From: a virus
IMG/VR virus record: IMGVR_UViG_3300025769_000169
Coordinates: 1-52,374 of that record
Strand: one strand, 5' to 3'
Length of the DNA: 52,374 nucleotides
The notes below the pieces were generated by a model. That model was not told the DNA's origin. It ran no database searches and worked only from the letters and a program-made list of their open reading frames with translations. Below, piece by piece: positions 18,043 through 36,187 of this stretch. Position numbers and translations under genes: made by a program. Positions within the stretch are counted from its first letter, which is position 1, and each line of letters begins with the position of its first letter.

Positions 18043-19491
18043 ATGTTACATAGAAAAACTATCTGTATACTTGGTGCAGGTAATGCCGGTCTTTTCGCCG
18101 CATTATATTTAAAAAAATCCTTACCAGGATTAAATGTTTATGTTGTTGGTTCATCTGAACTTGGCATTGTTGGTGTGGGTGAAAGTAGCACAGAACATGT
18201 AATGCAGTTCATGAATTTGATGAATGTAGACCATAAAGAGATAGTTCAAGAATGCGGCGCAACTTTTAAGTTTGGGGTCTATTTTAAAGATTGGTTAAAA
18301 GAAGGTGAAGATTATGTACATTCACTAGTTACAGATACTAATGAAGATGGCATAGACTTTGATTATATGAGTGGTATGGCATATGGTTCTACGAATTTAG
18401 AACTAATGCCACCAAATCTTCTCAACTATTGTGTAGATGAAAAAGACAGTTTACCTAATCAGTTTCATTTTGATACTCAAAAACTAAATGCTTGGTTAAC
18501 CAAAAAATGTAAACTGATAGGCGTACCTATCTATGATGATATTATCAATCAAGTCAATCATGATGATGGTCATGTGGCAAGTCTAGAGAGTGAGACTGCT
18601 GAATACAAAGCAGATATGTTTGTAGATGCTTCTGGTTTTAAGAGACTTATTGCAAAAGAAATACCAGAGTTTAAGTTTATCTCAAAGCAAGATGACATGT
18701 TTGTTGATAGTGCATTTGCTTTTCAGTGTCCTCATGATAACGAAGATAATTATTCTCTATTCACTACTGCACATAAAATGTCTGCTGGATGGATGTGGCG
18801 CATCCCAACATCTGAAAGAATGGGAAATGGATATGCATATAGTTCGAAGCATATATCATACGAAGATGCTGTAAAAGAAGTTACTGATAAACTAGGTTTT
18901 AAACCAAATGTAGGCAGAACATTTAAGTTTGAAGCAGGTCACTACAATAAGACTTTTCATAAGAATGTTGTATTGATTGGTTTGTCATCACACTTTTTTG
19001 AACCCTTAGAAGCAACTGCTATTGGTGTTGGACTACAGCAAGCAAAACTATTAGTGAAGTATGTAAACTCAACTACACCAGAAGCACAGCAAGGATACAA
19101 CAATAAAATTCAACAGATGTTTGAGCAAATGTTCATGTTCATTCGTTTACATTATGTGAACTGCGAAGTGACAAGTTCTTTCTGGCAAGATGTGAAGGAT
19201 TCAGTTTTACCGAAAAATTTACAAAAACTTATTGACATTAATAGAGACCGTGTGTTAGTATGTGAAGACTTAGGAGAACAGACTGGATGGGGTTGGCGTA
19301 TTTTTGGTAGTGATAACTTCAATCAAATATTTTATGCACTAGGACTATTACCTACTAAAAATGTAGAAGACTTCATATATGCTAATGGTAGATTACCTAG
19401 AAAACATAAATTTACAGACAACTCTACCTATAAGCATAAAGATTTGATTACAAAATGGAACAATGAATATGAAAATAGCATTAATAACTGA
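18043..19491 (+). CDS. FAD-dependent tryptophan-halogenase-like protein
   Basis: The 482-aa protein has all main landmarks of flavin-dependent tryptophan halogenases. These are the dinucleotide-binding GAGNAG (11-16), GVGESS (44-49), a lysine in TFKFGVYF (Lys76, at the place of catalytic Lys79 of PrnA), the halogenase signature GWMWRIP (249-255) and FEPLEAT (319-325). Family enzymes chlorinate or brominate tryptophan with FADH2 supplied by a reductase; no reductase is seen here. Members occur in other marine T4-like phages with unknown substrate. It lies 6 nt after gp55 and overlaps gp47. The real substrate may be a peptide or host metabolite; activity is inferred. Confidence 0.85.
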   Translation: MLHRKTICILGAGNAGLFAALYLKKSLPGLNVYVVGSSELGIVGVGESSTEHVMQFMNLMNVDHKEIVQECGATFKFGVYFKDWLKEGEDYVHSLVTDTNEDGIDFDYMSGMAYGSTNLELMPPNLLNYCVDEKDSLPNQFHFDTQKLNAWLTKKCKLIGVPIYDDIINQVNHDDGHVASLESETAEYKADMFVDASGFKRLIAKEIPEFKFISKQDDMFVDSAFAFQCPHDNEDNYSLFTTAHKMSAGWMWRIPTSERMGNGYAYSSKHISYEDAVKEVTDKLGFKPNVGRTFKFEAGHYNKTFHKNVVLIGLSSHFFEPLEATAIGVGLQQAKLLVKYVNSTTPEAQQGYNNKIQQMFEQMFMFIRLHYVNCEVTSSFWQDVKDSVLPKNLQKLIDINRDRVLVCEDLGEQTGWGWRIFGSDNFNQIFYALGLLPTKNVEDFIYANGRLPRKHKFTDNSTYKHKDLITKWNNEYENSINN

Positions 19492-22676: not shown

Positions 22677-22938
22677 AGTTAGATTTACACAAACAGAATA
22701 TCATCAGATGACAATCACTAAAGACATGAGCGTGAGTGAAGAACATATCATCGAACAAGGTTTGACAGTAGAACGCTTTAAAGAAATTATGAATGGTGAA
22801 GACCATACTGATGAAGAGTGCGACCAATATAATGAAATTCTTATGGGGTGGGCAGATGTTCTTGACAGTCAAGAAGATTTGTGGACTGACCGTAAGGGTG
22901 GTTATGATATCGATTATGAGTTGGTAGACGATGAGTAA
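22669..22938 (+). CDS. Small acidic protein of unknown function
   Basis: The 89-aa protein starts GEVRFTQTEYHQMTITKDMSV and is rich in Asp/Glu with a central helix GLTVERFKEIMNGEDHTDEE. No family recognised. The ATG at 22669 has GAAGGAGAA well spaced upstream; an earlier in-frame non-ATG start is unnecessary. It overlaps the deformylase gene by 8 nt, making a tightly coupled trio after gp46. Confidence 0.65.
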   Translation: MGEVRFTQTEYHQMTITKDMSVSEEHIIEQGLTVERFKEIMNGEDHTDEECDQYNEILMGWADVLDSQEDLWTDRKGGYDIDYELVDDE

Positions 22939-23464
22939 AATTTTAGATTTAACGCCTCCAAGTGAAGCAAGATACAAACCAGAAGAGTTTGATTTTGAGA
23001 ATCCATTTATGGATCCAATTGAACTTGCTGACCAGTTGTGGGATAATATGCTACACTATAAAGGCGTAGGATTATCTGCAACTCAAGTGGGTTTTAACAC
23101 TAAAGTTTTTGTCATGGGTCAAGATGACTTTCGTTTGAATGTTTTTAACCCTCAAGTACTTACAATGTCATCTGAACTGAAAGCAATGAAAGAAGGTTGT
23201 TTGACATGGCCTGGATTGTTTTTATCAATTCGTAGACCTGTTTTCTGTGTAGTATCATATTATGATGAAAAAGGTAATAACCAGAAGTTTAAATATGAAG
23301 GTATGACTGCACGAATATTCTTGCATGAAATGGATCATATGCTCGGCATCGATTTCACACAGAGAGCATCAAAGTTAGTGCTTGATAGAGGTGTCAAAGC
23401 AAGAGATAAGAAAATTAAAAAGTTAGTAAAAGATGGAAAGTTAAAATTAGATGCCGTGGGTTGA
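22931..23464 (+). CDS. def: Peptide deformylase
   Basis: This 177-aa enzyme removes the N-terminal formyl group from nascent proteins. All three family motifs are present. Motif 1 is GVGLSATQ (45-52), motif 2 EGCLTWPG (88-95, metal-ligand Cys90), and motif 3 LHEMDHM (His132 and His136, catalytic Glu133). Phage deformylases of this kind are known from marine T4-like phages, where they are thought to keep host or phage proteins (photosystem proteins in cyanophages) processed during takeover. It lies in an operon with no other translation gene. The C-terminus is a Lys-rich helix. Confidence 0.93.
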   Translation: MSKILDLTPPSEARYKPEEFDFENPFMDPIELADQLWDNMLHYKGVGLSATQVGFNTKVFVMGQDDFRLNVFNPQVLTMSSELKAMKEGCLTWPGLFLSIRRPVFCVVSYYDEKGNNQKFKYEGMTARIFLHEMDHMLGIDFTQRASKLVLDRGVKARDKKIKKLVKDGKLKLDAVG

Positions 23465-24047
23465 TTTACCTAAAAAAGGTGAAATAGGAGTTATGCCTTT
23501 TGAAAGGTTTGATTGGAATGATATAATACATAACTTTCAAGCATCTGTTGATTATAGAAACTCAGAAGAATGGAAAAAGGTTATTTCAAAATCTGGAAGA
23601 GCAGTTAGACTAGTATCGCAAAATCAAATTGAAATTGATAATGATACTAATACATTTCCTTCTTTTGCTACACATAATGCAGAGTTAATACCTCAGGTTG
23701 CATATGTAAGAAAAATTATAGAAGAGAAGCATCTTATTGAAAGAAGTGCTAGTAGAGTAAATTGTCATTTGTTTGTATCTCTTGTTGCAGAAAGTGACGG
23801 ACTAAACTTTCATCTTGACACTGAAGATACATACATATGGCAGATACAAGGCAAAACACTTTGGACAGTACAACAAGGTATAAACGAAGGTGATCCCATC
23901 GAAGAATTTATATTAGAACCAAACGACATGATATATATTCCAAAAGGTTGGCGCCACTATCCTACTATCACGGGTCCAAGATGTTCAGTTAGTTTTGCAA
24001 TTGAAGATAATCTATTTAATAGTGTAGAAGAAAGGTCAGATATATGA
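23451..24047 (+). CDS. JmjC/cupin-type oxygenase candidate
   Basis: The 198-aa protein has a cupin/JmjC-like Fe(II) site. HLD (His121, Asp123) lies in GLNFHLDTEDTYIWQIQGKTLW and the distal His169 in IPKGWRHYPT. This spacing and the Q(I/L)xGxKxW-like turn resemble protein hydroxylases of the JmjC/cupin_8 group. The substrate is unknown; ribosomal proteins or other proteins are typical targets of relatives. It overlaps the deformylase by 14 nt and the following hydroxylase gene by 4 nt. An alternative is a non-enzymatic cupin, as I cannot confirm the 2-oxoglutarate-binding residue. Confidence 0.7.
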   Translation: MPWVDLPKKGEIGVMPFERFDWNDIIHNFQASVDYRNSEEWKKVISKSGRAVRLVSQNQIEIDNDTNTFPSFATHNAELIPQVAYVRKIIEEKHLIERSASRVNCHLFVSLVAESDGLNFHLDTEDTYIWQIQGKTLWTVQQGINEGDPIEEFILEPNDMIYIPKGWRHYPTITGPRCSVSFAIEDNLFNSVEERSDI

Positions 24048-25186
24048 CACAGACAGAAGTAGAAATGAAAGATTGGCAGAAAGGTTATCAGTTAGATTAC
24101 CTGAAAGAAATTACTGCAGAGTATGACCATTACAATTCATACACCGATAGTCCTTTTGCACAATTTAAGAAGAATAATGTAGCAGACTTTTTAGACAAAG
24201 GTTCGCTACGCAAAGCAGGTGATGCATGGATTAATATCACGGAAGCAAAAGTTAAGTCAAAGATTACAATGCACGGTGAGACTATTATTGGTTATAAAGA
24301 ACCAGGTGATGTTGTAATTCAAAATATATCTGCATATACAGAAAACGTAAAGAACTACATCAATCACTATTCAGATAGAAACTGTTGGTTGTTTGTGTGG
24401 TCAGAAGATGCAAAAGCAGTTGAGTTTGCTAAAGAAGCAGGATTCGACTATGTTGGTAGCAAAATAACTACGTTTGCAGAGATATATAGCGTTTTCTTTC
24501 GTAATTCTAGCACTTCATTCGAGGATCGCTCTCATCCGCCCATAGACGGCGCTGAGACGGTTTCTATAAGTAAATGCATGTTTGACACTATCGAAACATC
24601 GATTATACGCACCGAACTAGAAAAATTGACGATGGAGTATACTAATCATTACTCAAATTACAATAAAAAAGGTGCTTGGTCAGCAATATCGCTGAGAGGA
24701 TATAGACCAGATGCATCATTTATTGCAAAACCTGTTGAAATGAGCAAGAAATGGAAAGCAGAAAACGACACATGGGAAGAGTGGGAGTGTGAAGACACAC
24801 CTTTGCGTGAGCAGTTTCCGTATGTCAATGAGATACTCTCAAAGATACCTACTGACAATATTGAGCGAATAAGATTTATGTCACTCGCTCCAGGTGGTGG
24901 TGAACTGCAAAGACACACAGACCAAGTTGACCCTTATCTTGGTGTTGCAGATGGTAAGATTATGAGACTACATATTCCAGTGATTACAAATCCGAAGATG
25001 GAGTTTACATCGTGGGATATGCATGGGCAGAAACATGTTGTTAATATGAAAGAAGGTGAGTTGTGGTATCTAGATATTCGCAAACCACATATGGCGATTA
25101 ACAATGGTGATGAAACAAGAATACATTTAGTGGTGGATATAGAAGCAAATGATAAATGCAGAAGATTATTTAGAGTTAGTGAGTGA
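24044..25186 (+). CDS. GNAT-like domain fused to aspartyl/asparaginyl beta-hydroxylase
   Basis: In this 380-aa protein the C-terminal part (about 270-380) is an Asp/Asn beta-hydroxylase domain. HTD gives the first two iron ligands (His291, Asp293), His349 in RKPHMAINNG is the third and Arg359 in DETRIHLVV would bind 2-oxoglutarate. The N-terminal 160 residues look like an acetyltransferase-type fold (CWLFVWSEDAKAVEFAKEAGFDYVGSKI resembles a GNAT end region), but acetyl-CoA motifs are not clear. Such a two-domain protein could modify one target twice. It overlaps both neighbours, the downstream one by 38 nt. Confidence 0.72.
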   Translation: MTQTEVEMKDWQKGYQLDYLKEITAEYDHYNSYTDSPFAQFKKNNVADFLDKGSLRKAGDAWINITEAKVKSKITMHGETIIGYKEPGDVVIQNISAYTENVKNYINHYSDRNCWLFVWSEDAKAVEFAKEAGFDYVGSKITTFAEIYSVFFRNSSTSFEDRSHPPIDGAETVSISKCMFDTIETSIIRTELEKLTMEYTNHYSNYNKKGAWSAISLRGYRPDASFIAKPVEMSKKWKAENDTWEEWECEDTPLREQFPYVNEILSKIPTDNIERIRFMSLAPGGGELQRHTDQVDPYLGVADGKIMRLHIPVITNPKMEFTSWDMHGQKHVVNMKEGELWYLDIRKPHMAINNGDETRIHLVVDIEANDKCRRLFRVSE

Positions 25187-25916
25187 TTGGGAAGACCCTT
25201 ACGATGCGCCTGTTCTGTGCAATCATGATGATGTTATCGTGGTTCGGGACGACCTACTACCTGCAGGTTCAAAAGTGCGGTTCATCGATAAACTCATACG
25301 GGATACCGATTGCGAAGAGTGGGTGTTCGGTGGTTCAAACAAAGTTGGATGGGGACCAATCTCACTAGCATATGTGTGTCAGAAGTATGGAAAAAAGGCA
25401 ACTTGCTTTTGGGCAGATAGAAAAGAACCAACATGGCATCAACAGAAATACATGGAGTACGGAGGTCGTATTGAATGGGTGAAGATGGGAATGCTAAATG
25501 TCACTCTGTCAAGAGCAGAGCGATACCGCAGAGAGAGTCCTCAAACCCGCAGGACATTGCCCTTAGGACTAGAACACGATTGGGTGCTAGGAAGTATAGT
25601 GAAAGTAGCGCAGTCGCTAGATGTAGCGCCAGAAGTAATCTGGACAGTAGGGTCATCAGGAACGATAAACCGAGGGTTGCAACTTGCATTCCCAGAGTCC
25701 GAAGTTCATGTGATACAGACGGGTCATAAGATGGATGAACGTCAGGTTGGTCGCGCTATCTTACATGAAACTGCATATAAATATGACAAACCAGTGAAGC
25801 AATCAGAAGCACCACCATTTCCGTCTGCTCCTGAATATGATGCAAAAGCATGGAAAGTGATACAAGAAAATATGGATAGAAATAAACTTAATTTATTTTG
25901 GAATGTAGCGGCATGA
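25149..25916 (+). CDS. Possible PLP fold-type II enzyme
   Basis: The 255-aa protein has features reminiscent of the tryptophan synthase beta / ACC deaminase fold. There is an early Lys in GGSNKVGWGPISLAYVCQKYG (Lys65) followed by a helix, then a TWHQQKYMEYGGRIEWV segment. A glycine loop GSSGTINRG (168-176) resembles a phosphate-binding loop, and a strand SEVHVIQTGHK follows. It is shorter than classic enzymes (about 330 aa) and I cannot confirm Schiff-base chemistry. Residues near 120-135 are Arg-rich. It sits between two oxygenase genes and overlaps both. Confidence 0.5.
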   Translation: MINAEDYLELVSDWEDPYDAPVLCNHDDVIVVRDDLLPAGSKVRFIDKLIRDTDCEEWVFGGSNKVGWGPISLAYVCQKYGKKATCFWADRKEPTWHQQKYMEYGGRIEWVKMGMLNVTLSRAERYRRESPQTRRTLPLGLEHDWVLGSIVKVAQSLDVAPEVIWTVGSSGTINRGLQLAFPESEVHVIQTGHKMDERQVGRAILHETAYKYDKPVKQSEAPPFPSAPEYDAKAWKVIQENMDRNKLNLFWNVAA

Positions 25917-26470
25917 TAAAAAGATTAGATTATATCGATAATTTGTTTGATGATGAGTTTGTAGCAAGAGTAGCAACAAAGTATCATGATAATTTATTTT
26001 ATTATGGCAATGTATCAAACAATCCAGATGATGCAATATTTTGGGCCAGTAAAAGACTGAAAGATTATACTCATATATTAGATTGTCCTGACCAAAAGTT
26101 TATCTTTAATAAAATTAAAGAATACTATAAGTTTGAAGTTAATGAAAAAGAAATAGACAAAGAGAATGTCTATATCAATGGACAAACATATGAATTAGAC
26201 GGGTCTATGCACATTGATAGTTTACATCGAACAAAAAATTTACAAGAGAACTTTACCATTTTGTACATGGTAAATTATTTACACGAAGGAATAAGAGGAT
26301 TTGAAACTCCAATGGGTGTAGTTGATTTTGTTCCAGGTAGAGTTGTGATATTTAGTTCTTTAATGTCGCATCGAGGATTATCTACCTCGGTAAAAACTAA
26401 TTGTCGAATGACATTAACATGGAAAAGTTTTGATTTAGTGTTTGACAAAACCAGTCCAATGATGCTATAA
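25913..26470 (+). CDS. 2OG-Fe(II) oxygenase-like protein
   Basis: The 185-aa protein (ATG at 25913 overlapping the previous stop) has an HxD in GSMHIDSLHR (His100, Asp102). The distal His153 is in SLMSHRGLSTSV and an Arg ten to twelve residues later (CRMTLTW) would suit the 2-oxoglutarate carboxylate. The overall layout matches prolyl-4-hydroxylase-like phage oxygenases. Substrate unknown. An in-frame ATG at 25898 lies inside the upstream gene and would add five residues. The last codons carry the -10 box of the next promoter. Confidence 0.72.
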   Translation: MIKRLDYIDNLFDDEFVARVATKYHDNLFYYGNVSNNPDDAIFWASKRLKDYTHILDCPDQKFIFNKIKEYYKFEVNEKEIDKENVYINGQTYELDGSMHIDSLHRTKNLQENFTILYMVNYLHEGIRGFETPMGVVDFVPGRVVIFSSLMSHRGLSTSVKTNCRMTLTWKSFDLVFDKTSPMML

Positions 26471-26471
26471 T
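26442..26471 (+). promoter_or_regulatory. Sigma70-type promoter with almost no leader
   Basis: TTGACA (26442-26447), 18-bp spacer, perfect TATAAT (26466-26471), lying inside the end of the oxygenase gene so that the -10 contains its TAA stop. The next ATG is at 26481, only 10 nt after the -10, so transcription would start within about 3 nt of the start codon. Confidence 0.82.
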
Positions 26472-26480
26472 GAGAGTAAT

Positions 26481-26708
26481 ATGAAAACCTATATACATGT
26501 AAACCAACATAAGATTAGAGCGAACAAAAAGCATGGTACAAACGAACCTGTTATCACAGTAAAAAAGGGTCGCTCAAATACATATTGTCATGCAGTTAAG
26601 ATACTAGGTGACAGTGTAGTTCGTTATGGTGGTAATGAAAAACCTATTCTATCTTGCGGCGCAAGAGTAGTGATAGAAACAGAAAGTGATGTTGAGATTA
26701 TTGAATGA
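26481..26708 (+). CDS. Conserved small protein of marine T4-like phages
   Basis: The 75-aa protein starts KTYIHVNQHKIRANKKHGTNEPVITVKKG and ends SCGARVVIETESDVEII, a pattern I recall from hypothetical proteins of cyanophages; function unknown. It appears to be a compact beta barrel with a basic N-terminal half, suggesting nucleic acid binding, but this is a guess. It is transcribed from the promoter that overlaps the previous gene and overlaps the methylase by 4 nt. Confidence 0.72.
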   Translation: MKTYIHVNQHKIRANKKHGTNEPVITVKKGRSNTYCHAVKILGDSVVRYGGNEKPILSCGARVVIETESDVEIIE

Positions 26709-28264
26709 AGCATTTTTATGAAAGAAATAGTTATCTACTAGAACATGAAGTAAACAAGACATTCGAAGAAGTTCTATGGATGACAGACGATGAATTTCGT
26801 CAATGGTTGCATGATATGCGAAAAGAAGTAGTATACTCATGGGATGAACTAGGTCTGCCTCCAAGAGTTGGTTGGAGTGAAACTGATATTATTGACCAGT
26901 TCAATAAGATGTCTAGTTTTCCTGTTCATGAGTTTGAATGCTTTAACGAAGAGACAGGTGAGCGAGATGTTATTCGTAATACATCAGTTATAGGTAATGC
27001 CGCCAATCAGTGGTTTCCTACAATGATGAAAACAAAGATTGTTTACAACGATATCAGCAAAGCAAAATCTATCTATGACCACTTTGTTGATGAAGATTTA
27101 TTTCAGAAAGTATATACATATGGGCATCGTCACTTTAAGCGGGATTCTTTCTATCATTATAGCAATCCTATTAAGCAAGAAGGGTTGGTTGAATTTGGGA
27201 CCTTACGGCACACAGTTTCTAGCGGCAGGTCTTTTATTGATTGGTTTGAGCGTAATGGTCGTCAATATGATACACATGATTATTGGTTGAAACCAGATAA
27301 AGAACAAGACTATACAGGTTATGATGACAAACTAAGAGATGTCGCGTGGGCGCAAGTTACTAGAGAAGAAATTGAACAACTAGACATACCTGACAAATGC
27401 AAAGTCAATATGAAAGACGAATATGATGTCTATCAGATTATGCTGTTCAAGAAAGGTCAAAAAATCTTTCCTTTGGGGTTCAAACCTTTTCGTATCTCTT
27501 GGTGTCAATACGCAGTAAACTTTCCGCCTCTTACTGCTAAATATCTCTATGAAAAATATACTGAGCATTTTAAAGACCAGTCTACTATTCGTATTTGGGA
27601 TCCCTCTGCTGGTTGGGGCGGTCGTATTCTTGGTGCTATGTCTATCTCTGATGACCGCAATGTACACTATATTGGGACTGACCCTAATACCGACCATACT
27701 GTCATTACAGAAGACGGTACCAAAAGCACAAAGTATGCTGAACTTGCAAGGTTTTTCAATGAGAAAACTTACAGAGCAACAGGTCTATTCCCACATACAA
27801 ACACATACGAAATTCACCAATGTGGGTCAGAAGTCTTTGAATGTGAAGAAGAGAGTATCGATATGGTCTTCACCTCGCCGCCTTATTTTGCGAAAGAAGC
27901 GTATAGCGAGGACGAAGAACAATCGTACAAGAAGTTCGACCAGTATGAAGCGTGGGTAGAAGGGTTTCTTAGACCTACACTTACTAACGCATATAAATAC
28001 TTAAAGAACGACAGATACTTACTCTGGAATATTGCAGATGCAAAGTTCGGTAATGAGATGCTACCTTTAGAAGGTGATAGTATTCGTATCTGTGAAGAAC
28101 TTGGGTTTGAGTATGTGACCACGTTAAAGATGGCACTAGCACAGATGCCAGGTGGTAATAGAGTTGATGAGGAGACAGGTAAACCGCGGGCGAAAAACTT
28201 TTGTAAAGTCAACGGCATCTGGTTAAAGTATGAACCGATATTCGTATTCAAAAAACATCTTTAG
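26705..28264 (+). CDS. DNA methyltransferase (N4/N6 type, TSPPYF motif)
   Basis: The 519-aa protein has the SAM-binding motif I DPSAGWGGR (299-307) followed by YIGTDPN. The catalytic motif is TSPPYF (390-395), the (D/N/S)PPY signature of amino-methyltransferases acting on adenine N6 or cytosine N4. The 290-residue N-terminal part is unrelated to classic methylases and could be a recognition or second functional domain. Order motif I then SPPY fits group gamma-like enzymes. It might protect phage DNA or change expression. No matching endonuclease lies beside it. The gene overlaps the next methyltransferase by 35 nt. Confidence 0.8.
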   Translation: MKHFYERNSYLLEHEVNKTFEEVLWMTDDEFRQWLHDMRKEVVYSWDELGLPPRVGWSETDIIDQFNKMSSFPVHEFECFNEETGERDVIRNTSVIGNAANQWFPTMMKTKIVYNDISKAKSIYDHFVDEDLFQKVYTYGHRHFKRDSFYHYSNPIKQEGLVEFGTLRHTVSSGRSFIDWFERNGRQYDTHDYWLKPDKEQDYTGYDDKLRDVAWAQVTREEIEQLDIPDKCKVNMKDEYDVYQIMLFKKGQKIFPLGFKPFRISWCQYAVNFPPLTAKYLYEKYTEHFKDQSTIRIWDPSAGWGGRILGAMSISDDRNVHYIGTDPNTDHTVITEDGTKSTKYAELARFFNEKTYRATGLFPHTNTYEIHQCGSEVFECEEESIDMVFTSPPYFAKEAYSEDEEQSYKKFDQYEAWVEGFLRPTLTNAYKYLKNDRYLLWNIADAKFGNEMLPLEGDSIRICEELGFEYVTTLKMALAQMPGGNRVDEETGKPRAKNFCKVNGIWLKYEPIFVFKKHL

Positions 28265-28901
28265 TAACGTACCAGTCGAATTCGAAGATTGGGGTCAAAA
28301 AGATTATGATGAGTTGTGTGGCATTGAAAAATATGCATATCAAACATATCGTTACTTCATCAAAGACTATCTGCAAAATCATACTGAAATCACAGCGATG
28401 GATATTAACTGTGGTCTTGGATACGGTCTAGCATGTCTCAAAGGCGAATATAATTTTAAAAAGTGTATTGGATATAATAATGACCAAAACATGCTTGAAG
28501 CATGTAAGATTAGACATTCTGGTATCTCTTTTTACAAAGACTTTATATTGTCTAAGCAGAGAGATGCAAATCTAATTTTCTCTATTGATGCATTTGACCA
28601 GTATGATAATAAGAGTGCTTTGTTGCTTAGACTATCGCAAGCATTAGCAGATGATGGTATCTTGTGTATAATTCAAAACTCAACAGACGAAAATGAATAT
28701 AATAATTACATTGAAATTTTACATGGAGTACATGGTCTAAAGAAATTATATAATGCAGATATAACTGCACATGTTGCAGGTGGTATTAAAAAGTTTGAAA
28801 ATTTTGCAGATGGTTCATCATCAATACCTTATGCTACAGTTTCATCAAAAATATCTCGTTATGATGATTTCAGATACTATGTAACTATTATGAAGAGATG
28901 A
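28230..28901 (+). CDS. Class I SAM-dependent methyltransferase
   Basis: The 223-aa protein carries motif I MDINCGLGYGL (57-67) then KKCIGYNNDQNMLEACK, the typical Rossmann nucleotide-binding strand and acidic residue pattern, and a LSQALADDGILCIIQN strand typical of post-motif regions. No SPPY motif, so the substrate is probably a small molecule or protein rather than DNA bases. The start at 28230 lies inside the DNA methylase (35-nt overlap); no better internal Met is available before motif I. It overlaps the next oxygenase by 4 nt. Confidence 0.75.
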   Translation: MNRYSYSKNIFSNVPVEFEDWGQKDYDELCGIEKYAYQTYRYFIKDYLQNHTEITAMDINCGLGYGLACLKGEYNFKKCIGYNNDQNMLEACKIRHSGISFYKDFILSKQRDANLIFSIDAFDQYDNKSALLLRLSQALADDGILCIIQNSTDENEYNNYIEILHGVHGLKKLYNADITAHVAGGIKKFENFADGSSSIPYATVSSKISRYDDFRYYVTIMKR

Positions 28902-29407
28902 TAACATTAATAGATACTTTTTTAGAACCTGATACATTTTTCAGAGCAACTTCACTATCAAACGAAATTTATAATTCAACAGAATGCACACTAAAATCTA
29001 ATGCATCTTGGAATTCTAATGTTGTGCGAACAAGTCATACTGTTCTTGTACATATGATATCTGATGACGAACTTGTGAACTACTTACAAACAAGAGTAGA
29101 AGAAGAATTTGGTCACTATGATATCACACCTATGTTTTATTACTGGACACAGTTTAGTTACATACCGTGGCATAATGATGGAAATCATTCAGCGGCACTT
29201 ACAATTTATCTCAATGAACAAGATGAAAATGATGGTGGATATTTTATGTATGAGAAAGATGATGGAACAATCGAAGCAGTTGCACCTAAACCTAATAGAG
29301 CGATATTTCAAGCAGATGGAGTGAGACACTCTGTTACTTCAGTTAATCTTGGTGCACCAGTCAGAAGAACAATACAAATATTCATGAAAAAACGCTTGAC
29401 AAACTAA
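28898..29407 (+). CDS. 2OG-Fe(II) oxygenase (prolyl-4-hydroxylase-like)
   Basis: The 169-aa protein is the clearest oxygenase of the island. PWHNDGNHSAALTIYLN holds His92 and Asp94, and HSVTSV the distal His144. Arg156/157 in APVRRTIQIF is the likely 2-oxoglutarate ligand. GGYFMY lies between them as in prolyl 4-hydroxylase-type domains (DUF-type phage oxygenases of about 170-190 aa). Likely targets are proteins or nucleobases, unknown. Its last 12 bases hold the -35 of the next promoter. Overlaps the methyltransferase by 4 nt (ATGA). Confidence 0.82.
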   Translation: MITLIDTFLEPDTFFRATSLSNEIYNSTECTLKSNASWNSNVVRTSHTVLVHMISDDELVNYLQTRVEEEFGHYDITPMFYYWTQFSYIPWHNDGNHSAALTIYLNEQDENDGGYFMYEKDDGTIEAVAPKPNRAIFQADGVRHSVTSVNLGAPVRRTIQIFMKKRLTN

Positions 29408-29613: not shown

Positions 29614-29645
29614 GTATATAGATGATGAGAAAAGAAGGTGTGTTT

Positions 29646-31913
29646 ATGACAAAAATTACTGAAGTCAAATCTGTTCTAGCAAAATTGCTTGCTACTGAGA
29701 ACTTGACTGTCGAGTATGCAAATGTCGATACTGCTAGTTTCGATGTTAAAAATCGCATATTGCGTATTCCGACAATGAAAGATTTAGATGCAAAAACTCT
29801 AGACCTGTTTGTTGGTCATGAAGTCGCCCATGCTCTATGGACTCCTTGCGATGGCATGGAGAACCTTCCTATCAAATCTAAGAATTTTCATTCAGTTGTG
29901 AATGTCGTAGAAGATGCCCGCATTGAGCGACTAATTCAGAAGAAATATCCTGGTCTAAAGAAACCATTCTATCAAGCATACACACAGTTGCATGAGAATA
30001 ATTTCTTTGGTACAGAAGAAATGAACATTTCTGATTTGCTTCTTATCGACCGCATCAATCTAAAAGCAAAACTCGGTACTCAAATCAACATTGAGTTGAC
30101 AGGTAAAGAAAAAGAATTCTTTGACCGTTCTATGACTACTCAAACTTTTGATGAAGTTATCAAACTATCAGAAGAGTTGTTCGAATATTGTCAGCAAGAG
30201 TTAGAAGAAAAGCAACAGAATTCAGAAGATAATCCTGATGTTTCTCCTTACATGATGCAATCTGAGCAAGGCGATGAGCAAGAGCAAAACGCCGATAATG
30301 ATGGTGCTGATGAAGGCGAAGGTCAAGGTATGAATGCTGTACAAGGTGATGCTGACCAAGATGCAGAAGAGCAAGGTCAAGCAAACTCTGCTGATACAGA
30401 AGAAGATGCCGATGGCGAAGATACAGTAAAAACTAAAGCACCAAATTTAGTAGATGATATGGATGGTAAAGCAGAAGATACTGAAGGTTCTGCTCCTGGT
30501 GTCAAATCAATTACTGATATGGCATCTAACAAGAATACCAAAAAGTTAGTCGAGACTGATGAGGATTCGATTCCTCGTTACTATGATATTCCTAAGACTA
30601 TCAATATCAATGAAGTCGTTGTTCCATTCACCACAATTCATTCTGAAATTGTAGAACATTGGGGCAACACCGAGCGTGTCAAAAATCTGTTGACCAAGAC
30701 CGCAAAAGAATTCAAAAAGAAGAATGAAAAGGTAATCAATTATCTGCACAAAGAATTCGAAATGAAAAAAGCGGCAGATATGTATGCCCGCGCAAACACT
30801 ACCAAGACTGGTGTTATCAATTCAAATCTGCTTTACTCATACAAGTACAATGAAGATATCTTTATGAAAAAGACTGTTCTTCCAAATGGTAAGAACCACG
30901 GTATGGTTTTCTTCCTTGACTGGTCTGGTTCAATGTCAGATAACATGAAAGGTACTATGGAGCAGTTGCTTTGTCTCGCATTGTTCTGCAAAAAAGCACA
31001 GATTCCTTTCTCTGCTTATGCATTCTCTTCTGAGTACTACAAGCGTACACAAACAAATCTAGAAAAAATTCAGTCTCTTAATATGAATGAACTGAATGTT
31101 AGTGGTGTTTCGCTGTTAGAACTTTTCAATGACAAAATGAATACTGTTCAATTCAACAAAGCAGTCGAGTTATGTGTAGCATTGTCAAATCTGTATAGCA
31201 GAAAATATGGTTATGGTGATTTTGCATACATGGGTCTTCCAAGAAAATATTATCTTGGCGGTACTCCTCTTGATGCTACAATTATTATCGCCCACAGACT
31301 TGTTCCTGAGTTTCAGAAAAAAATGAACGTGCAAGTTATGAATGTGTGTTTCTTGACAGATGGTTCAAGTCACACCGTGAGTGGTTGTGTTGGTTACAAC
31401 AAGTTCGGTGGTGTCGATGCATTTACTGTCACCGCTGATGTAAACTCTCGCGGCACATTCTTTATCCGTGATAAGAATACTGGAACTCTCATTAAGTCTG
31501 TCGGTGACAAATACAACCGAGGCGATATGACAAAAGCATTATACATGTCTCTCAAAAAGTCAACTGGTACAAACACAATGGGTTTCCACTTAGTTGGTCA
31601 GCGTAATGAGATGCGCTATGCATATGACAAGTACATTGCTCCAACATTAGACAGTGAGATTGCACGATACACATATTTCGATGATTGGAAAAAGTCATTC
31701 AATAGAAACAAATGCGATACTTCAATTATCAGTGGATTAGATGAATTGTACATCATCAAAGGTGGTAAAGCACTTGAGGTTGATGATGAAGGTCTTGATG
31801 TTGAGGTTGGTGCTTCAAAGCAAAAACTGACCACAGCATTCAAGAAAGCGGCACAAGGTAAATTGCAGAACCGAGCAGTTCTGAGCAAATTTATTGAGAA
31901 TATCGCCGCTTGA
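29646..31913 (+). CDS. CobT-like zinc-protease / VWA-domain protein
   Basis: The 755-aa protein has two functional signatures. HEVAH (58-62) with a downstream VEDARIE is a gluzincin-type zinc site. A C-terminal von Willebrand A domain has MIDAS DWSGS (Asp425, Ser427, Ser429) and a later LTDGS. Between them is a long acidic, Gln/Asp/Glu-rich linker (about 180-290). This architecture matches CobT and other VWA partners of MoxR-type AAA+ ATPases. A CobS-like ATPase is the next gene, so they probably act as a chelatase-like remodelling pair. No CobN subunit is visible, so cobalamin synthesis is doubtful. A further in-frame Met lies upstream at 29622. Confidence 0.85.
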   Translation: MTKITEVKSVLAKLLATENLTVEYANVDTASFDVKNRILRIPTMKDLDAKTLDLFVGHEVAHALWTPCDGMENLPIKSKNFHSVVNVVEDARIERLIQKKYPGLKKPFYQAYTQLHENNFFGTEEMNISDLLLIDRINLKAKLGTQINIELTGKEKEFFDRSMTTQTFDEVIKLSEELFEYCQQELEEKQQNSEDNPDVSPYMMQSEQGDEQEQNADNDGADEGEGQGMNAVQGDADQDAEEQGQANSADTEEDADGEDTVKTKAPNLVDDMDGKAEDTEGSAPGVKSITDMASNKNTKKLVETDEDSIPRYYDIPKTININEVVVPFTTIHSEIVEHWGNTERVKNLLTKTAKEFKKKNEKVINYLHKEFEMKKAADMYARANTTKTGVINSNLLYSYKYNEDIFMKKTVLPNGKNHGMVFFLDWSGSMSDNMKGTMEQLLCLALFCKKAQIPFSAYAFSSEYYKRTQTNLEKIQSLNMNELNVSGVSLLELFNDKMNTVQFNKAVELCVALSNLYSRKYGYGDFAYMGLPRKYYLGGTPLDATIIIAHRLVPEFQKKMNVQVMNVCFLTDGSSHTVSGCVGYNKFGGVDAFTVTADVNSRGTFFIRDKNTGTLIKSVGDKYNRGDMTKALYMSLKKSTGTNTMGFHLVGQRNEMRYAYDKYIAPTLDSEIARYTYFDDWKKSFNRNKCDTSIISGLDELYIIKGGKALEVDDEGLDVEVGASKQKLTTAFKKAAQGKLQNRAVLSKFIENIAA

Positions 31914-31959
31914 TTAGAAAAGTTTTTCACACTTTTGCCATAAATAGTGAAAATAATGC

Positions 31960-31988
31960 TTGACTAATTCAGTAAAATATGAGATAAT
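31960..31988 (+). promoter_or_regulatory. Sigma70-type promoter for the CobS-like gene
   Basis: TTGACT (31960-31965), 17-bp spacer, GATAAT (31983-31988), 33 nt before the start codon. A late-like CATAAATAGTG (31939) and a small inverted repeat AAAAGT/ACTTTT (31918-31936) lie just upstream in the 107-nt gap. Confidence 0.7.
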
Positions 31989-32020
31989 GTTTACATAATG
32001 ATGAGAAAAGGTGATTAATT

Positions 32021-33178
32021 ATGAATAAACGTGAGATGTTTCTTGAGTCCGCAACTGCGATGTTTCCTAAACAGACTGAGTTCAGTCGTTCAGAACTAGT
32101 TCAAGTTGCCAATTCTATTGGTATGAAATATGCACCATCATGGATTGTAAAATCTGATGAACATAAAGTTGGCGATGGTGTGTATTCACTATTCGCAAAT
32201 ACTGTAACGGCAACAGTTGCCGAACCACAAACGGTTGCTGAGGTCGTAGAGATGCCTAAAAAGAAATTGCAAGTGTTAGATAGTACTGTCACTAATCTGA
32301 TTCCTCAAGCATATGCGAACTATGTTCCATTCGGTCAGTTTTCTGATGTTAAAAATATCGTCAAGTCTAAAATGTTCTATCCGACATTCATTACTGGTCT
32401 GTCTGGTAATGGTAAGACTATGATGGTCGAACAGATTTGCGCCCAACTGAACCGCGAGTTCTTCCGTGTGAACATCACTATCGAAACCGATGAAGATGAT
32501 TTGCTCGGTGGTTATCGCCTTGTTGATGGCGAGACTGTCTTCTTTGATGGTCCAGTTATTCAAGCAATGAAGCAAGGTGGCGTATTGCTCCTTGATGAGA
32601 TTGACCTTGCATCAAACAAGATTATGTGTTTGCAACCAATCCTAGAAGGCAAGGGTATTCTACTGAAGAAAATCAATCAGTATGTACAACCTGCTCCTGG
32701 TTTCCAGATTATTGCTACTGCAAACACCAAAGGTAAGGGTTCAGAAGATGGACGCTTCATCGGTACGAACATCCTGAACGAAGCATTTCTTGAGCGTTTC
32801 CCAATCTGTATCGAACAAGAGTATCCTTCTATTACTGTAGAAAAGAAAATCATCAATAAAGAGTTGGACTCTCTTGGAAAGTCTGATGATGATTTTGCTG
32901 ATAAACTGACCAAGTGGGCAGATATCATTCGTAAGACGTTCCTCGATGGTGGCATCGATGAGATTATCGCCACTCGGCGTCTTGTACATATTGTCAAAGC
33001 ATATGCCGTCTTTGGTGACCGCATGAAAGCGATACAGATGTGTATCAACCGCTTTGATGATGAAACTAAATCTGCGTTCATCGACCTCTATTCGAAAGTC
33101 GATGAGCAGATTGTCGATACTGATTTCGGTGAAAGTGTTACTGAACCACAATCAGATGTTGACAAAACACCGTTCTAA
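32021..33178 (+). CDS. cobS: CobS-like MoxR-family AAA+ ATPase
   Basis: The 385-aa AAA+ ATPase has Walker A GLSGNGKT (126-133, Lys132), then DEDDLLGGYRLVDGE, the pattern before Walker B in CobS/MoxR proteins. Walker B LLLDEIDLA follows, and then ATANTKGKGSEDGRFIG with the sensor and NEAFLERFPI arginine-finger region. CobS is the ATPase subunit of cobaltochelatase and is widespread in marine T4-like phages. Its partner is probably the VWA protein just upstream. The first 85 residues form a separate winged-helix-like start (FSRSELVQVANSIGMKYAPSWIV). Substrate unknown. Confidence 0.88.
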   Translation: MNKREMFLESATAMFPKQTEFSRSELVQVANSIGMKYAPSWIVKSDEHKVGDGVYSLFANTVTATVAEPQTVAEVVEMPKKKLQVLDSTVTNLIPQAYANYVPFGQFSDVKNIVKSKMFYPTFITGLSGNGKTMMVEQICAQLNREFFRVNITIETDEDDLLGGYRLVDGETVFFDGPVIQAMKQGGVLLLDEIDLASNKIMCLQPILEGKGILLKKINQYVQPAPGFQIIATANTKGKGSEDGRFIGTNILNEAFLERFPICIEQEYPSITVEKKIINKELDSLGKSDDDFADKLTKWADIIRKTFLDGGIDEIIATRRLVHIVKAYAVFGDRMKAIQMCINRFDDETKSAFIDLYSKVDEQIVDTDFGESVTEPQSDVDKTPF

Positions 33179-34550: not shown

Positions 34551-35495
34551 ATGGATATTAAAAGTGATGAATTTCTGTGGGTTGAAAAGTACCGCCCACA
34601 GACCATTCAAGATGCGATTTTACCAAAGCATCTTGAAACAACCTTTCAACAGTTTGTTGAGAGTGGGGATATTCCTAACCTATTGTTGTGCGGCACTGCA
34701 GGTGTCGGTAAGACCACAGTCGCAAAAGCACTTTGCGAACAGATGGGTTATGATTGGATTATTCTCAATGGTTCAAGTGAAGGTGATATTGACACCTTAC
34801 GAACTAAAATTGTAAACTTTGCTAGTACTGTGTCCTTCAGTGGCAAAGGTAAAGTGGTCATCTATGATGAAGCAGATTATTTGACCGCGGTGACGCAACC
34901 TGCTTTGCGTAACTTTATTGAAGAGTTCAGTAAGAACTGTCGGTTCATCTTCACTTGTAACTATAAAAACAAAATCATTCCTGCACTTCATTCTAGGTGT
35001 AGTGTGATTGAGTTTACTATTCCTAAAGATGAGAGACCTAATCTTGCAGGCAGTTTCTTCAATCGCGTAAATCAAATCTTAGATACTGAGAATGTTCAGT
35101 ATGAAAAAGGTACTGTAGCGAAGATTGTAGAAAAGCACTTTCCTGACTTCAGACGCACACTCAATGAACTGCAGAAAATTTCTGTTGGTGGTCGTATCGA
35201 TAGTAGTAGTGTAGATGTAGTCGATGTCGATATCAAAAATGTTATCGCACACTGCAAGCAAAAAGACTTTCAGAAGATGCGTAAATGGGTCGCTGACACT
35301 ATTCACACAAGCGATGCACAAGATGTATATCGTAAAGTCTACGACACTATGAGTGAGCATCTACAACCGCAGAGCATACCTCTTGTAGTTCTAAAGATTG
35401 CTGACTATCAGTATAAGAATGTGCATGTGGCAGACCAAGAAGTAAACATGGTTGCATTCTTTACTGAAGTTATGGTTGACTGTGAGTTTCAGTAA
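34551..35495 (+). CDS. gp44: Clamp loader large subunit gp44
   Basis: This 314-aa AAA+ ATPase has FLWVEKYRPQTIQDAILP at the start, Walker A GTAGVGKT (48-55, Lys54) and Walker B VVIYDEAD (Asp106/Glu107). The SRC motif is LHSRCSVIEF (Ser148-Arg149-Cys150). With gp62 it loads the gp45 clamp onto primer-template DNA. T4 gp44 is 319 aa. The stop overlaps the ATG of an oxygenase gene that separates it from gp62. Confidence 0.95.
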   Translation: MDIKSDEFLWVEKYRPQTIQDAILPKHLETTFQQFVESGDIPNLLLCGTAGVGKTTVAKALCEQMGYDWIILNGSSEGDIDTLRTKIVNFASTVSFSGKGKVVIYDEADYLTAVTQPALRNFIEEFSKNCRFIFTCNYKNKIIPALHSRCSVIEFTIPKDERPNLAGSFFNRVNQILDTENVQYEKGTVAKIVEKHFPDFRRTLNELQKISVGGRIDSSSVDVVDVDIKNVIAHCKQKDFQKMRKWVADTIHTSDAQDVYRKVYDTMSEHLQPQSIPLVVLKIADYQYKNVHVADQEVNMVAFFTEVMVDCEFQ

Positions 35496-36187
35496 TGCCG
35501 ATACCTTATTTACATCATGAATTATTTGAACTAAATGATGGTCTTCTATGCAAGAAGCATGTGATAGAAGGTATCGGTCCTGTCGTAGTGATTGACCAGA
35601 CTTACAAATACCCTAGTGATATTGCACTAATGCTAGACCAAGCATGGGTTCCTTCTTTTCACTATGGTAGAAGTAGTTCTAATTATAAAGACTACTATGA
35701 TTGCAGATATAATATTCAAATTACGAAAACAGGTCATGTCAAAGAAAATGAAGTTCAACTTTTAATTAGAGATATGGCGAAGAACTATCTTGGTTATGAG
35801 TGTATTGATGAAGAACTTGATTATACTTTCAATTGCTTTACATGGGTAAACCCACCTTCAAGCAATGATGTTCAGTCTATGCCACATCAAGATAGTGAAG
35901 GTAAATCACATATTGCATCTGTAACTTATTTCAATGATAATGAAAACCACGGCACAGCATTTTATTCTCATTGTGATGCCGAGCAAGAAGAAGTTATAGA
36001 CATTCGGTGTGATATATCGAAGAATGCAGAACTAGTTGAAGTGATTACAGGTAAAAAGAACAGAACTATCATTTATCCTAGTTGGTACTGGCATGGTGCA
36101 TATATAGAAGACCACAGTGAGTGGGTCGATAATTGGAGATACAGTCAAGTATACTTCAATAGAGTGAAACCGGATTTTAAATTATGA
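35495..36187 (+). CDS. DUF6445-like 2OG-Fe(II) oxygenase inserted in clamp-loader operon
   Basis: The 230-aa protein has HQD (His131, Asp133) in SMPHQDSEGKSH and a distal His200 in PSWYWHGAYI. The middle SHIASVTYFNDNENHGTAFYSH fits the jelly-roll core of DUF6445-type oxygenases, which are frequent in marine phages. It sits between gp44 and gp62 with 1-nt and 4-nt overlaps, so it is cotranscribed with the replisome. Substrate unknown. Confidence 0.72.
   Translation: MPIPYLHHELFELNDGLLCKKHVIEGIGPVVVIDQTYKYPSDIALMLDQAWVPSFHYGRSSSNYKDYYDCRYNIQITKTGHVKENEVQLLIRDMAKNYLGYECIDEELDYTFNCFTWVNPPSSNDVQSMPHQDSEGKSHIASVTYFNDNENHGTAFYSHCDAEQEEVIDIRCDISKNAELVEVITGKKNRTIIYPSWYWHGAYIEDHSEWVDNWRYSQVYFNRVKPDFKL

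Follow-up and report, generated by a model that had tools for sequence, protein, structure and literature searches.

We analysed a 52,374-base fragment of a T4-like phage (virus record IMGVR_UViG_3300025769_000169), referred to here in its whole length as the window. Downstream of its gp47 and gp46 genes lies an island of closely packed enzyme genes, and this island is likely to hold a three-enzyme DNA-hypermodification module made up of an oxygenase of the AspH type, a pyridoxal-phosphate (PLP) enzyme and a methylase with an SPPY motif. To judge from the genes, the product of the module is probably an amino-acid-derived base formed without the classical 5-hydroxymethyl-deoxyuridine (5-hmdU) route. 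The three genes and the key positions within them are as follows.

24044-25186, plus strand: AspH-type 2-oxoglutarate (2OG)-Fe(II) oxygenase, 380 amino acids (aa); PF05118, 1e-16 (aa 186-367)
24914-24922, plus strand: HxD iron-binding motif, H291-T-D293 of the AspH domain, from the alignment
25149-25916, plus strand: fold-type II PLP enzyme, 255 aa; phrog_7093, 2.5e-35; PALP PF00291, 5.5e-4
25272-25274, plus strand: codon of K42, the presumed PLP-binding lysine, invariant in two alignments
26705-28264, plus strand: N4/N6-type (T-S-P-P-Y) DNA methylase, 519 aa; PF01555, 1.6e-7
27875-27886, plus strand: motif IV SPPY, S391-Y394 of the methylase, invariant in the alignment

The methylase and PLP families are physically joined in several other phages. 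The methylase of the window is homologous to the R6L-type methylase (hhalign 96.5%, E 8.2e-10), and gp1 of Erythrobacter phage R6L (810 aa) consists, in this order, of a ParB-like region, methylase motif I, a complete PLP domain, and methylase motif IV with the rest of the methylase. This fusion was also found in two IMG/VR contigs (L110 and L111), and the methylase and PLP enzyme are encoded by adjacent genes in Microcystis phage Mae-JY30 and in many contigs. In Mycobacterium phage Vincenzo, gp1 is annotated as ParB-like and has an SCPPY methylase domain; its gene overlaps that of gp2, a PLP enzyme. R6L gp1 is annotated as a methylase in PMC5463345, and the label "DNA modification methylase" is misleading for the R6L and Mae-JY30 proteins. 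Among the best 80 of 393 R6L-type PLP loci, a methylase was located within 300 nucleotides (nt) in 48, within 1.5 kb in 60 and within 6 kb in 65. When the loci were collapsed at 70% identity, the methylase lay within 300 nt in 13 of the 21 clusters and within 1.5 kb in 19.

The three genes also travel together, along with ParB, in phages that are not T4-like. We found the trio with ParB in eight such loci (L224, L225, L230, L234, L242, L253, L257 and L264), several of them ordered ParB/methylase, AspH, PLP. The order methylase, AspH, PLP was seen in L119 and L120, and the shorter contig L118 has AspH and PLP. Among cultured phages, the AspH protein was found only in Mycobacterium phage LilMcDreamy (two records), with a partial match in PfAn1. 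LilMcDreamy gp1 is ParB-like, gp2 is Tet/JBP-like (Tet_JBP 0.0022, below the cut-off), gp3 is an amino acid:DNA transferase (ADDT; PF18724, 2.7e-12) and gp4 matches the entire AspH protein of the window (hhalign 1.2e-85, against a profile in which the IMG/VR record of LilMcDreamy itself is one of the 52 rows). A second AspH search, for which the best 80 of 222 loci were fetched and 51 examined by tblastn, gave ADDT in 26, a Tet-like protein in 23 and an R6L-type methylase in 11 of the 51; ADDT was also detected by Pfam in L204 and L207. Collapsing all AspH loci at 70% identity left 47 clusters, with a methylase or PLP gene in 31, ADDT in 12 and both in none (8 would be expected if they were independent); two clusters had no methylase, PLP, ADDT, Tet or ParB gene. 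Mainly because the partners are either Tet and ADDT or methylase and PLP, the substrate of the AspH domain is predicted to be an amino acid already tied to DNA.

The AspH-type protein has its oxygenase domain at about aa 173-376 (61.6 bits against a curated cut-off of 22.6 for Asp_Arg_Hydrox, PF05118), preceded by a possibly GNAT-like domain at aa 1 to about 165. H291, D293, H349 and R359 are invariant in an alignment of 52 AspH sequences and presumably are, from what is known of the family, the metal and 2OG ligands of the HxD...H...R pattern. The AlphaFold2 model has a mean confidence (pLDDT) of 94.9. Its AspH domain is nearest in fold to L-proline cis-4-hydroxylase (Foldseek 2.7e-11; Z 16.2, root-mean-square deviation [rmsd] 2.7, 176 aligned) and to a nucleoside-antibiotic hydroxylase (Z 16.6, rmsd 2.5, 157 aligned), with AspH itself coming next; the nearest folds in this model comparison are thus hydroxylases of amino acids or of amino-acid residues. 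For the N-terminal domain, two N-acetyltransferases were the top PDB matches, both weak (E 0.05 and 0.18), and no GNAT-named family was among the Pfam matches of 17 members of the AspH-protein family. A VIA-align fold search, which hardly probes this domain, returned oxygenase-type folds only.

The PALP match of the window PLP enzyme is under the curated cut-off, and homologs in loci L002 and L003 exceed it (40.6 and 46.3 bits against 35). K42, within a GSKxR motif, is invariant in nine PLP sequences, and the SG of the phosphate-loop region is conserved; we take K42 to be the PLP-binding lysine from family knowledge. The label "threonine dehydratase" of phrog_7093 is misleading. No PDB sequence matched the PLP profile at 0.01, and a genome collection held 13 relatives, mostly on alphaproteobacterial contigs. 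The window enzyme is about 24% identical to the PLP enzymes of phages YuA and SN1; in SN1 the PLP gene is located between aGPT-Pplase2 and radical S-adenosylmethionine (SAM) genes. A PLP enzyme 75% identical to that of the window was also observed in another T4-like contig (L017:2777-6249), between DNA polymerase and UvsX with the AspH gene out of view; not far from it are a DPPY methylase and what by eye is apparently a NodU/TobZ-type carbamoyltransferase.

The PLP position is not always held by the same family. In 9 of the 80 T4-like AspH loci described below, the window-type PLP is missing and another fold-type II PLP enzyme, PLP2, always follows directly after the AspH gene; the two were found together in none of the 80. 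Their homology is remote (hhalign 96.8%, E 2.4e-10). In a tree built from 33 T4-like AspH proteins, 6 of them with PLP2, this enzyme requires five changes, at least four of which are forced by well-supported branches, so the PLP slot seems to have been refilled several times. PLP2 matches the PLP enzyme of Ackermannviridae (called "threonine ammonia lyase" in Salmonella phage bering) with about 60% coverage and about 29% identity, and is also related to Vincenzo gp2. In PMC6336734, the PLP enzyme of phage PP35 is among the 5-hmdU-transformation genes conserved in Ackermannviridae. Both PLP families have relatives, by sequence, among the PLP enzymes of thymidine-hypermodification phages of the M6/YuA and ViI types.

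The methylase has an N-terminal extension of about 260 aa and a PF01555 score of 32 bits (cut-off 26.7), and a D-x-S-x-G-W motif is kept in the alignment along with TSPPY. A fold search with its model gave generic Rossmann methyltransferases only, and a PDB sequence search with the methylase profile gave no match at 0.01.

These assignments also bear on another explanation, namely that the methylase merely methylates, and that the PLP and AspH enzymes act on a free amino acid or cofactor and are co-located with it as early anti-host genes. The nearest solved relatives of the AspH domain do hydroxylate free proline, and Pfam assigns the PLP enzyme to PALP. However, such an explanation does not fit a PLP domain inserted inside a methylase, the ParB neighbours, or the ADDT and Tet neighbours of the AspH protein, and we consider it improbable.

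A profile search for the T4-like AspH protein gave 227 loci. In the best 80, with genes counted by tblastn, we found the AspH protein in 80, gp46 in 75, gp47 in 72, PLP in 64 and the methylase in 62, all lower bounds given contig ends, flanks of 8 kb and the diverged copies that tblastn misses. The usual order is gp47, gp46, deformylase, AspH, PLP, a variable segment, methylase, a VWA protein and MoxR. In many of these loci a dCMP deaminase was observed between PLP and methylase (a cluster of 34 of the 80; for example, L024:13547-14014, PF00383 3.9e-23, and L016:12490-12918), perhaps merely as a nucleotide-metabolism neighbour. No near-DNA match of the island was found among 50,697 phage records. 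In Melnitz-2 and S-RIM12, annotated phages whose gp46 is among the most closely related, the annotation shows no trio after gp46; a T4-like carrier in culture was therefore not found there. The remaining genes of the island, and a further oxygenase outside it, are listed below.

22931-23464, plus strand: peptide deformylase, a neighbour not assigned to the module; PF01327, 1.2e-31
23451-24047, plus strand: cupin/JmjC_2 oxygenase, lineage-specific extra; PF08007, 9.6e-13; 10/80 relatives
25898-26470, plus strand: 2OG-type oxygenase OGa, lineage-specific extra; phrog_274, 9.4e-16; 10/80 relatives
26481-26708, plus strand: 75-aa protein; phrog_8676, 5.6e-21; no Pfam match
28230-28901, plus strand: possible SAM methyltransferase (SAMmt), lineage-specific extra; Pfam 3.5e-4, below the cut-off; 8/80 relatives
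28898-29407, plus strand: 2OG-Fe(II) oxygenase OGb, lineage-specific extra; PF13640, 1.1e-7; 4/80 relatives
35495-36187, plus strand: 2OG-like oxygenase OGc beside gp44/gp62, not part of the island; DUF6445, 3.3e-13; phrog_1644, 7.5e-16

The cupin, OGa, SAMmt and OGb genes were found in 10, 10, 8 and 4 of the 80 loci, with other genes in their place elsewhere. In the close relatives (11 PLP and 8 AspH loci), identities were 46-100% for AspH, 54-99% for PLP and 59-100% for the methylase; in the same loci the four other genes are diverged or missing. The genes outside the trio appear to be dispensable additions or to have no connection with it. The deformylase gene regularly adjoins gp46 (65/80), also in Methylophilales phage Melnitz-2, where the trio is lacking. 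The 75-aa protein was observed in 10 of the 80 loci, near the AspH gene but not in a fixed position. OGa has no Pfam match, and the label "DNA endonuclease V" of phrog_274 looks wrong, as its matches at OGa and OGb resemble 2OG oxygenases.

The rest of the window is that of a T4-like phage, with genes for terminase, sheath, portal, prohead protease, gp23-type major head protein, UvsW-like helicase, gp46/gp47, DNA polymerase and UvsX. The island begins directly 3' of gp47-gp46 and two small open reading frames (ORFs). An earlier sequence-only reading had described its enzyme genes, most of them overlapping by a few bases, and all the ORFs that it named were found at the stated coordinates, on the plus strand; the 75-aa ORF had been left off its list. 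The overlaps are, in order, 14, 4 and 38 nt, a few nt for PLP/OGa (depending on the start codon), 4 nt for the 75-aa ORF and methylase, 35 nt and 4 nt. Its family labels held for deformylase, cupin/JmjC, AspH, PLP, the methylase and the 2OG oxygenases, including the one it noted at 35495 (OGc). Deformylase, the JmjC_2 cupin, the AspH-type oxygenase, the methylase, OGb and OGc are above Pfam thresholds, and the PLP enzyme and OGa were identified through PHROGs; the SAM methyltransferase and the GNAT half gave weak matches. Two further observations concern genes flanking the island. Just before gp47, at 18043-19491, is a tryptophan-halogenase family protein (PF04820, 5.6e-87), with a gene of this family in 9 of the 80 loci; halogenase genes are listed for cyanophages in PMC3037559. 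Directly behind the island, at 29622-33178, are a large VWA-like protein of 763 aa (without a firm Pfam match; in 32 of the 80 loci) and a MoxR/CbbQ-type AAA ATPase (in 23), often named cobT and cobS in marine phages.

The variable spot behind gp46 might instead collect auxiliary genes with no common product, some of them acting on host translation (deformylase and a cupin resembling ribosomal oxygenases). 2OG oxygenases are abundant in marine T4-like phages anyway (PMC3037559), and the core genes of pelagimyophages are said to include an aspartyl/asparaginyl beta-hydroxylase and a deformylase, with no pathway stated in the passages cited (PMC7029224). We give this view little weight, as the trio turns up in unrelated phages that lack the rest of the island and the PLP enzyme can be fused into a DNA methylase. 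Modification of translation proteins, one of the two functions proposed in the sequence-only reading, found nothing pointing to it except the deformylase beside gp46. That reading had also treated the entire island as one pathway, and this is the least probable explanation: the genes are tightly packed with short overlaps, most of them co-occur in a close clade, and four of five oxygenase-type genes fall within eight consecutive genes (P = 0.015 for random placements among 63 predicted genes, with five identified oxygenases counted and not every small ORF scanned), a clustering that is real but modest, but the cupin, OGa, SAMmt and OGb are far rarer than PLP and methylase, and deformylase stands beside gp46 without the trio in Melnitz-2. 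Independent shuffling among relatives, which that reading had named as counting against it, is true of the variable genes and false for the trio. DNA hypermodification, its other suggestion, is supported for AspH, PLP and methylase, which co-travel across unrelated phages beside or inside known DNA-modifying enzymes, and not for the whole island.

The three-enzyme module was compared with known modification systems by scanning 14 T4-like records (up to 150 kb and possibly incomplete). The ThyA family (PF00303) was absent from all 14 and was detected in SN1 and in 9 of 14 control genomes; ADDT (PF18724) was likewise found in none of the 14 and was detected in LilMcDreamy and SN1. C5-methylase (PF00145) and Tet_JBP were each found in 0/14. 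For the 5-hmdU DNA kinase, the SN1 kinase served as tblastn query in the flanks. The classical 5-hmdU/ADDT pathway was rejected on the absence of ThyA-family and ADDT genes, and the C5-methylase/TET and CmoX routes on that of PF00145 and Tet_JBP; because none of these four gene types was found in the 14 records, the classical route is unlikely. As far as these possibly incomplete records show, the handle would not be a known hydroxymethyl- or carboxymethyl-pyrimidine.

Each known system shares some of the parts. In phages of the M6/YuA/SN1 type, which make 5-(2-aminoethyl)-dU, a related PLP enzyme belongs to a cassette for DNA modification that also has aGPT-Pplase and radical SAM genes (PMC9476957); unlike these, the T4-like group has a DNA methylase and an AspH oxygenase, with no ThyA-family hydroxymethylase or ADDT found. 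ViI and other Ackermannviridae (5-NeOmdU) have a PLP enzyme related to PLP2, the alternative occupant of the PLP slot (PMC6336734 and PMC11721090), whereas the tested T4-like records have no ThyA-family gene. The TET/ADDT cassette of LilMcDreamy (gp1-gp4) includes, in gp4, an AspH protein built over its full length like that of the window; its upstream partners are Tet/JBP-like and ADDT proteins, those in the window methylase and PLP. In the CmoA-CmoX-CmoY system for 5-carboxymethylcytosine, which also has ParB neighbours, a methyltransferase-family protein installs the handle and glycine is then coupled; CmoX is a C5-methylase with SPPC, whereas the window methylase is of the SPPY N4/N6 type. 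A preliminary search by the authors of that work found no N6/N4 carboxymethyltransferase tied to CmoA (PMC12783734). R6L gp1 and Vincenzo gp1-gp2 have the same methylase and PLP families as the window, fused or overlapping, but no AspH protein was seen beside them.

In the module that we propose, the methylase-family protein would select, open and activate a base on the phage's own DNA, and its joint action with the PLP enzyme would result in a base that bears an amino acid or an amine. The PLP enzyme may decarboxylate the residue tethered to DNA or act otherwise on its alpha carbon; in the known M6 and ViI pathways, PLP enzymes act as decarboxylases or carry out alpha-carbon chemistry on such residues. 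The AspH domain would then hydroxylate the amino-acid-derived moiety, and the front domain of the same protein may acylate this moiety or hold DNA. In LilMcDreamy-type phages, Tet and ADDT would build an equivalent amino-acid adduct, so the same AspH protein could serve both routes. The modified base would shield virion DNA from host nucleases. More specifically, and only tentatively, the "methylase" could, instead of methylating, transfer an amino-acid-bearing group, for example the 3-amino-3-carboxypropyl group of SAM, to N6 of adenine or N4 of cytosine, with the PLP enzyme decarboxylating or rearranging it and AspH hydroxylating it. Such a transfer would give a DNA-linked alpha-amino acid in one step.

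Several points weigh against the module as proposed. The modification chemistry is deduced from the genes, and with ADDT in 0/14 records the T4-like group yielded no enzyme that would attach an amino acid, which leaves the source of the adduct conjectural. The methylase model is of moderate quality (pLDDT 74), and the GNAT assignment of the N-terminal half of the AspH protein is weakly supported. The PLP enzyme is not obligatory, since six T4-like loci (L053, L065, L066, L088, L093 and L101) run from the AspH gene to the methylase without a PLP gene between, and none was detected near AspH and methylase in L221-L223; conversely, 15 of the 80 R6L-type PLP loci have no methylase in the flank that was fetched, and in some of these the flank has its full 6 kb. 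No ParB gene was noticed in T4-like loci, where the counts, as stated, are lower bounds and the shared order may be inherited synteny. Finally, in the AspH tree each of the two groups, ADDT and T4-like, makes up one side of a supported branch; the exclusivity of ADDT and methylase/PLP follows clades and its P value overstates independence, so we treat it as a pattern and not as 47 independent events.

Amino-acid-derived phage bases are already known; the set of PLP, methylase and AspH genes is apparently undescribed in the literature searched. Which restriction systems and other nuclease defences succeed against a phage depends on its base modifications, and the discovery of such pathways has time and again revealed novel enzyme chemistry. 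Pieces of the pathway are present in the cultured phages Vincenzo, AlanGrant, LilMcDreamy, R6L and ZS04, and it is therefore testable now. If the module is real, the families labelled "threonine dehydratase", "DNA modification methylase" and "aspartyl/asparaginyl beta-hydroxylase" would share one testable role, and an undescribed hypermodified base would be present in a large set of T4-like phages, uncultured and recovered from many metagenomes. Should the aminocarboxypropyl version be true, a further handle chemistry of phage DNA, besides hydroxymethyl, 7-deazaguanine exchange and carboxymethyl, would be spread through uncultured T4-like phages.

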